The notes beneath the pieces were generated by a model. That model was given only the letters and a program-made list of their open reading frames with translations. It did no database searches and was not told the DNA's origin. DNA of 32,910 nt from Candidatus Aenigmatarchaeota archaeon (GTDB taxonomy: Archaea > Aenigmatarchaeota > Aenigmatarchaeia > QMZP01 > QMZT01): the NCBI GenBank assembly GCA_021162425.1, contig JAGGYQ010000013.1, positions 1 through 32,910 of the forward strand. Reading direction: 5' to 3'. Positions 10,021 to 11,586 of this stretch are shown here, one piece after another (the first letter of the stretch is position 1; every line of letters begins with the position of its first letter). The translations under genes were made by a program, and so were the position numbers.

Positions 10021-10119
10021 TGGGTCCGGCCGGAGTTTCAGCGATGGAATCGAATTTGCTATTGAACCGGCGACCTTCCGCACGTCAAGCGGACGTCATA
10101 GCCACTAGACCACGGACCC
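10021..10119 (-). tRNA. tRNA-Val(GAC) interrupted by a 26-nt T-loop intron
   Basis: - strand: GGGTCCG TG GTCTAGTGGCTATGAC G TCCGC TTGACGT GCGGA AGGTC GCCGG TTCAAT^[intron]^T CCGGC CGGACCC A. All stems pair; 73 nt after removal. Confidence 0.92.
10035..10060 (-). other. tRNA intron (position 59/60) with bulge-helix-bulge
   Basis: Outer helix GCCGG:CCGGC; 3' bulge ACU; central helix UUCA:UGAA; 5' bulge AUA; inner helix starts GC:GC. Cleavage after bulge nt 2 on both sides leaves T-loop UUCAAUU (7 nt). Confidence 0.88.
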
Positions 10120-10154: not shown

Positions 10155-10375
10155 TGGGCCAGGAGGGATTTCCAACATAAGGGAGCCTTCCCCTCCCTTA
10201 TCAACCCTTCCGAGCCATAAGGGAATAAGGGCGCCACGCCCGCCCTTGTCAACCCATCCTACCGTTAAGAGCGCATACCCGCCCTTATCAACCTTTCCAA
10301 ACCAACGATGTCAGCTTTTGAACCCTCGACCTCCGCCGTGTGAAGGCGGCGTCATAACCACTAGACCACCGGCCC
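10155..10375 (-). tRNA. tRNA-Val(CAC) interrupted by a 148-nt T-loop intron
   Basis: - strand: GGGCCGG TG GTCTAGTGGTTATGAC G CCGCC TTCACAC GGCGG AGGTC GAGGG TTCAAA^[148 nt]^T CCCTC CTGGCCC A; 73 nt after removal, one G-U pair in the acceptor stem. Confidence 0.85.
10169..10316 (-). other. 148-nt tRNA intron (position 59/60) containing ~48-nt repeat units
   Basis: Central helix UUCA:UGGA and 3' bulge AAU fit a BHB; exons rejoin to UUCAAAU. 83 nt of it (10165-10247, including 3 exon nt and U60) match window positions 33-115 exactly. Confidence 0.8.
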
Positions 10376-10933: not shown

Positions 10934-10994
10934 AGATTATCACTTAAAATAAAAAGACTTGTCATCACAAAGAAAGAACACGCTGGGGGCAGGA

Positions 10995-11101
10995 ATTCAG
11001 ACAGCCGGAAGTGTCAACTCCCTCTTGAAACTTTCGATGAGATGCATACTGCGTATGCATCGTTCGCTTTCCTGCCTCTGTTGGGAGCAGGGGAAGCTGT
11101 G
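10995..11101 (-). other. tRNA-Ser T-loop intron, 107 nt, position 59/60
   Basis: 3-4-3 geometry: 3' bulge AUU, central UUCG:CUGA (one C-U mismatch), 5' bulge AAC, inner helix ACAGC:GCUGU; exons rejoin to UUCGAAU. Confidence 0.8.
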
Positions 11102-11119
11102 TTCGAACCTGCGCGGGCG

Positions 11120-11200
11120 TACGAGCGAGCGACGCACACTCCATGCGCGTCAATCTGGAGTAGCGAAAGACGCACACTCCATGCGCGTCAATCTGCTTTT
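11120..11200 (-). other. tRNA-Ser variable-arm insertion (about 77 of these 81 nt would need removing)
   Basis: The variable stem GGGCG(11205-11201)/CGCCC(11119-11115) encloses 81 nt instead of a short loop. Exact splice sites not resolved. Confidence 0.6.
11131..11195. repeat. 27-nt direct repeat (11131-11157 and 11169-11195), each copy forming a hairpin
   Basis: gacgcacactccatgcgcgtcaatctg occurs twice exactly; GACGCGCA-UGGAG-UGUGCGUC hairpin on the - strand. Confidence 0.9.
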
Positions 11201-11212
11201 CGCCCAGCGGAT

Positions 11213-11274
11213 GTCACACAATCATAAGGTTCGAAAGACGTTCGCAAGCGAACGTCGACCTTCTTCTCATCCGT
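11213..11274 (-). other. tRNA-Ser anticodon-loop intron, 62 nt, canonical position 37/38
   Basis: CUCGAG^ACGGAUG...UGUGAC^A UCCGC; contains GACGUUCG-CUUG-CGAACGUC hairpin. The BHB central helix is imperfect (CUCG:UGUG). Confidence 0.78.
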
Positions 11275-11290
11275 CTCGAGTCCGCCGCCT

Positions 11291-11321
11291 TAAGCCCGTC
11301 TTCGCGGAGGCGAAGCACGTT
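11291..11321 (-). other. tRNA-Ser D-loop intron, about 30 nt (exact ends ambiguous by 1-3 nt)
   Basis: GCCGAGCCCGGUU CAACGUG CUUCGC CUCC GCGAAG ACGGGCUU AAGGC: the insert contains a 6-bp hairpin and GGGC that can pair with GCCC of the 5' exon. Confidence 0.7.
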
Positions 11322-11385
11322 GAACCGGGCTCGGCCACCCCAGCGTCATATATTTTATTAAAACTCGAAGACTTTAAATAATCTT

Positions 11386-11586
11386 ATGAAGGTCAAAGTG
11401 AAATTCTGGGATGGGATGAAGAATGCGGAAATTAAAGAGAACGCAAAGGTTATAGATGTTTTAAGAGAGCTGAACGTGAACCCAGAGACAGTCATAGTCA
11501 AAAAACGCAATGAAATTGTGCTTGAGGATGAAAAGCTTTCAGATAACGAGGAAATAGAGCTCATAAAGGTCGTTTCTGGCGGTTGA
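11386..11586 (+). CDS. ThiS/MoaD-like ubiquitin-fold protein (SAMP-like), C-terminal GG
   Basis: 66 aa MKVKVKFWDGMKNAEIKENAKVIDVLRELNVNPETVIVKKRNEIVLEDEKLSDNEEIELIKVVSGG*. Confidence 0.85.
   Translation: MKVKVKFWDGMKNAEIKENAKVIDVLRELNVNPETVIVKKRNEIVLEDEKLSDNEEIELIKVVSGG

Follow-up and report, generated by a model that had tools for sequence, protein, structure and literature searches.

In a 32,910-nucleotide (nt) stretch of archaeal DNA (the window, contig 24 of its own genome, G000, a 954-kb draft that is 92.6% complete), a 364-nt segment of the minus strand, 11344..10981, was found to contain a tRNA-Ser(CGA) gene laid out as five exons and four inserts. It is very probably a functional single-copy gene of an uncultured DPANN archaeon, with all four introns excised from one precursor. 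An earlier interpretation made from the letters of the window (the sequence-only reading) had proposed four introns, and this held up as the best reading given orthologs that lack inserts at the predicted sites, enrichment of helices at the splice sites and an endonuclease of broad specificity encoded in the genome.

Gene anatomy and orthologs

On the minus strand (10981..11344), the gene starts with exon 1 (11324..11344), GCUGGGG-UG-GCC-GAGCCCGGU, which supplies the 5′ strands of the acceptor and D-stems and the D-loop as far as GGU. Intron 1 (11293..11323, −) inserts 31 nt into the D-loop and is followed by exon 2 (11275..11292, −), UAAGGC-G-GCGGA-CUCGAG, with the D-stem 3′ strand, the anticodon stem 5′ strand, anticodon CGA and G37. 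At the canonical 37/38 position, intron 2 (62 nt; 11213..11274, −) carries a kink-turn-like AAGA box and leads into exon 3 (11198..11212, −), A-UCCGC-U-GGGC-GAAA, composed of A38, the anticodon stem 3′ strand, the 5′ strand of the variable (V) stem and the V-loop GAAA. Intron 3 (79 nt; 11119..11197, −) splits the loop of the V-arm. Exon 4 (11102..11118, −), GCCC-GC-GCAGG-UUCGAA, holds the V-stem 3′ strand, the T-stem 5′ strand and T-loop UUCGAA. It is separated by intron 4 (107 nt, T-loop 59/60; 10995..11101, −), which resembles the T-loop intron in G006:C12, from exon 5 (10981..10994, −), U-CCUGC-CCCCAGC-G, containing U60, the 3′ strands of the T-stem and acceptor and the discriminator G. The predicted exon junctions are GGU/UAAGGC, CUCGAG/AUCCGC, GGGCGAAA/GCCC and UUCGAA/UCCUGC. 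Exon boundaries were set from the tRNA consensus and uninterrupted relatives, with ambiguous letters decided by the register of the bulge-helix-bulge (BHB) motif.

The spliced 85-mer was called tRNA-Ser(cga) by ARAGORN with all arms complete, and forms a full class II cloverleaf with a long variable arm, anticodon CGA and discriminator G. The arms named in the sequence-only reading (acceptor, D-stem GCC/GGC, anticodon stem GCGGA/UCCGC and T-stem) and the discriminator G were all recovered in the order of a tRNA; they lie on the minus strand, whereas that reading gave no strand. Its V-stem GGGCG/CGCCC is drawn here as GGGC/GCCC. Insert lengths of 62 and 107 nt had been given exactly, while those of about 30 and about 77 nt were refined to 31 and 79 nt and the spliced length of about 88 nt to 85 nt.

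In its unspliced form, the gene escapes standard searches. ARAGORN made no call on the raw window, and Rfam gave no match at gathering thresholds and no tRNA model even at E ≤ 10. Self-splicing group I or II introns are not indicated either, as no Rfam intron model matched and the inserts measure only 31–107 nt. The mature sequence of the G006 ortholog, used as an independent query and aligned with splicing to the locus, scored 36. Sixty shuffles averaged −35.8 and none scored above −29, and the best of 59 other pieces of the window reached −26; chance is excluded. ARAGORN and the Rfam tRNA model thus miss such genes outright, so that tRNAs listed as 'missing' from small archaeal genomes may be falsely so. 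Another tRNA-Ser(CGA) was sought in the 92.6%-complete genome and none was found. A 'tRNA-Ser(cga)' reported by ARAGORN at G000:C58 was rejected as a second copy, being a tRNA-Met(CAT) that has a canonical intron and was mis-split. UCG accounts for 75 of the 7,340 codons in the window.

Positional orthologs were identified in seven other genomes of the family, giving eight genes together with G000 and mature lengths of 83–86 nt after splicing. Their intron sets comprise 37/38 alone (G001), 37/38 and T-loop (G002 and G007), D-loop and 37/38 (G005), D-loop and T-loop (G006), 37/38, V-arm and T-loop (G004) and all four (G000 and G008). Every one of the four inserts is missing from at least one ortholog, and the joined V-arm of G000, GGGC-GAAA-GCCC-GC, is identical to the naturally uninterrupted V-arm of G006; the inserts are therefore separable from the tRNA body. 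The V intron is present in G008 and absent from G005, a member of the same genus. A single family thus offers a series of one, two, three and four introns that allows tRNA introns to be traced as they are gained and lost. Pairing in the stems was complete across the eight mature sequences (200 of 200 cells). Both-sided changes occurred in 10 of the 25 pairs (20 cells); the shuffled expectation was 3.8, and none of 500 shuffles reached the observed level. Sliding the partner strand lowered pairing to 31–50%.

Splice sites, enzymes and competing explanations

In the BHB geometry, each bulge has three nucleotides and is cut between the second and the third. Applied to the 18 introns of the family, the exact sites gave 63 of 72 possible central-helix pairs, while moving one or both sites by 1–4 nt gave 6–37 pairs and random 3′ sites gave 28.6 ± 4.1, the best of 20,000 trials reaching 46. 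The central helices of G000 are CCCG:CGGG for the D intron (4/4 pairs), CUCG:UGUG for 37/38 (3/4), GCGA:UCGU for V (4/4) and UUCG:CUGA for T (3/4). When each intron was folded for BHB, as the sequence-only reading had suggested, only the helix of the D intron lay in the local minimum free energy (MFE) fold, where it is accompanied by a 10-nt 5′ loop. For the T intron, the MFE fold has almost the same helix, with four pairs and a 3′ bulge of two nucleotides, against 3/4 base pairs in the register with three-nucleotide bulges. Judged from these predicted folds, the splice motifs of G000 are relaxed, and the D intron is bulge-helix-loop (BHL)-like.

The genome encodes a 400-amino-acid splicing endonuclease that matched the ARMAN-2 epsilon-2 enzyme (PDB 4fz2 and 9w2k) from end to end (351 bits, E = 7.8e-104). 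That enzyme cleaves both BHB and BHL substrates and requires its ARMAN-specific loop (ASL) to do so (PMC12397907). The alignment retains ASL residues Tyr160-Lys161 and catalytic Tyr236, His251 and Lys282, whose roles are taken from the same study (PMC12397907). An RtcB ligase is also encoded (E = 2.2e-160). Endonuclease matches were obtained in 58 of the first 61 genomes searched, comprising G000 and relatives, and among these most members of the family have the form of roughly 400 amino acids. Because the closest named relatives of the endonuclease are records labeled Candidatus Aenigmatarchaeota and Micrarchaeota, the host is assigned to a DPANN-type archaeon. In the proposed pathway, the gene would be transcribed as a single 364-nt precursor, from which the ARMAN-type three-unit (epsilon-2) endonuclease would excise the introns of the D-loop, 37/38, variable-arm loop and 59/60, all four of BHB or relaxed-BHB type, and RtcB would ligate the five exons to give an 85-nt tRNA for UCG codons. 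Transcription, cleavage, the order of cleavage and aminoacylation are what we infer for this locus.

Several observations weigh against that account. Splicing is deduced from DNA sequence, the 37/38 central helix of G000 is weak at 3/4 pairs, and the strict BHB lies above the local MFE by 3.3 (37/38), 7.2 (V) and 4.8 (T) kcal/mol. An intact second tRNA-Ser(CGA) could also be absent from the assembly, as this is 92.6% complete. The high cost at the V intron, together with the stability of its hairpin array and the tolerance of class II variable arms to length change, would suit a tRNA from which three introns are removed and the variable-arm insert is kept as a very long arm. This seems quite unlikely, because the boundaries of the insert give a 4-base-pair BHB central helix in G000, G004 and G008, the spliced product equals the uninterrupted arms of relatives and the number of hairpin units varies (two in CGA and three in GCU), which is easier to tolerate in sequence that is removed. 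A count of five, with a second intron nested in the 107-nt T-loop insert, could be argued from comparison with the related T-loop intron in G006:C12, in place of whose apical part the insert has a longer hairpin block; yet the extra block is apical within one intron, one BHB-like outer pair of sites suffices and no tRNA exon lies inside, which makes this very unlikely.

That the gene is a decayed pseudogene or relic, whose inserts built up after its death while tRNA-Ser(UGA) reads UCG by wobble, would agree with the presence of tRNA-Ser(UGA) in the genome and with the failure of standard tools to detect tRNA-Ser(CGA). We hold it to be highly unlikely, since pairing is preserved through both-sided changes where family members differ and the G000 copy retains all 25 stem pairs. 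The place of the gene beside a ThiS-like gene and tRNA-Val genes is kept as well, and the inserts are no mark of decay because other tRNA genes of the genome are similarly interrupted. Chance resemblance or an assembly artefact, for which the draft state of the assembly and nothing further can be cited, is vanishingly improbable in view of the shuffle control and of the G008 ortholog, which comes from a different assembly and has its four introns in matching positions.

Neighboring genes, shared introns and a candidate guide

The tRNA-Ser(CGA) gene is flanked by a divergently oriented ThiS/SAMP2-like gene (11386..11586, +), used as a synteny marker; in those relatives that were inspected, a homologous-looking frame was seen by eye upstream of the tRNA gene. 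A search for relatives with the neighboring open reading frame as query found none. The next gene of the conserved tRNA cluster is tRNA-Val(CAC) (10155..10375, −), with a 149-nt T-loop intron, and the third is tRNA-Val(GAC) (10021..10119, −), with a 26-nt T-loop insert. The order tRNA-Ser(CGA), tRNA-Val(CAC), tRNA-Val(GAC) is found in the window and in G007, and again in G034 and G036, which belong to another family.

Interruptions occur in many other tRNA genes of the genome, usually in the D-loop or T-loop. Within the tRNA-Ser genes of G000, CGA has four introns, GGA three (its 37/38 exon boundary being set by eye), GCU two and UGA two, and tRNA-Ser(UGA) of G004 likewise has four. The V intron consists of tandem copies of a 38-nt hairpin unit, two in tRNA-Ser(CGA) and three in tRNA-Ser(GCU) (G000:C52, L084), with 94–97% identity per unit between the two genes. 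In the window, unit 1, GACGCGCA-UGGA-GUGUGCGUC, occupies 11169..11189 (−), and unit 2, identical to it and 38 nt downstream, occupies 11131..11151 (−). The T-loop introns of tRNA-Ser(GGA) (G000:C31, L100) and tRNA-Ser(GCU) (G000:C52, L084) share an identical first 77 nt and are very long, at 169 and 193 nt. Recent copying or gene conversion between tRNA genes is the simplest reading of such shared introns, and has been proposed for Thermoproteales (PMC4090602).

Near-identical GGTTGATAAGGG...CCCTTATGTTGGAAA blocks, organized as tandem hairpin units, occur in the T-loop introns of tRNA-Val(CAC), Ala, Phe and His (window 10169-10317, −; L012, L018 and L020), which again suggests introns copied recently inside the genome. 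The T-loop intron core CTGCTCCCAACAGA...AAGAGGGAG also lies within the T-loop intron of a tRNA-Met, and in another family it occurs outside recognized tRNAs (L204 in G006:C12, L203 in G021:C10 and L096 in G024:C67). Under a strict pattern it was detected in only 2 of 41 genomes of the order, in one case inside a tRNA T-loop and in the other not; it is possibly an independent small RNA. The hairpin GACG-N-CGTCTTTCG is over-represented in G004, G006 and G000 relative to a reversed control (18 versus 1 in G004) and recurs in tRNA introns and between genes, which may point to a small repeat that seeds introns. In tRNA-Ser(UGA), the 37/38 intron is long, about 90–120 nt (L019, L089, L090, L091, L102 and L116), and its blocks GATGA..TTCATGGCTTGACTCTGAT..GGCGG..ATGAGGAG are strongly conserved across genera, a pattern that suggests a functional guide RNA.

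The 37/38 intron of tRNA-Ser(CGA) was also considered as a guide. In G000, it begins with CGGAUG, which is complementary to CAUCCG of the 3′ exon and duplicates the 5′ anticodon-stem strand. The intron start covaries with the 3′ anticodon-stem strand in orthologs having a 37/38 intron (AUAGA/UCUAU, AUGGA/UCCAU and CGGA/UCCG). A kink-turn-like motif is found in five of seven orthologs, where the nucleotide five before the GA box pairs with U39 and 5–7 of 6–7 guide pairs are formed. The candidate guide has degenerate boxes, and the kink-turn pattern by itself arises in 2–25% of shuffled introns, so that cis guiding is a lead only. Introns as working parts, with the 37/38 intron serving as a minimal cis box C/D-like guide for 2′-O-methylation of U39 before splicing and the V-arm and T-loop introns spreading and expanding as tandem hairpin units that are copied from one tRNA gene to another, is a tentative idea that we think could well be wrong.

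Comparison with known systems

Published accounts give three as the maximum number of introns in any one archaeal tRNA gene (PMC8450103; 2014 review PMC4033280), and three introns occur in a nucleomorph tRNA gene (review PMC4090602); these sources agree with the earlier statement that up to three had been described. Four in one gene exceeds that maximum and is exceptional to this extent, but the variable arm is no new site, intron positions 20/21, 45/46 and 59/60 being already known (PMC4090602), and tRNA-Ser(CGA) of G008 and tRNA-Ser(UGA) of G004 have four as well. No archaeal tRNA gene with four introns was found in the accessible literature that was searched, so that priority is not proven. 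The number of introns is new and their kind is known, and the highest published number for a single tRNA gene would rise from three to four. In the Asgard groups Atabeyarchaeia and Freyarchaeia, which belong to another phylum, more than half of the tRNA genes carry several introns, frequently at non-canonical sites (PMC11291895), and four-intron precedents may exist there.

The guide idea has its counterpart in the tRNA-Trp intron of Haloferax volcanii and others, where a 37/38 intron complementary to its own pre-tRNA has a box C/D RNA arrangement aimed at U39 (PMC4090602). Here, in contrast, the gene is a tRNA-Ser, the boxes are degenerate and the putative guide has a kink-turn-like core only. 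Multi-intron tRNA genes of Thermoproteales (Pyrobaculum and others) similarly have like introns in different tRNA genes (PMC4033280 and PMC4090602), but reach at most three introns per gene (PMC8450103 and PMC4033280) and are paired with an (alpha-beta)2 endonuclease, compared to four introns and an epsilon-2 enzyme here. ARMAN-1 and ARMAN-2 appear among archaea with multiple-intron tRNAs in the accessible part of the 2014 review, which reports no gene with four (PMC4033280). They share with G000 the same type of epsilon-2 endonuclease over its full length, including the Tyr-Lys pair of the ARMAN-specific loop, and the tRNA-Ser(CGA) gene would thus offer a natural multi-site substrate for an enzyme whose structure with RNA has recently been solved.
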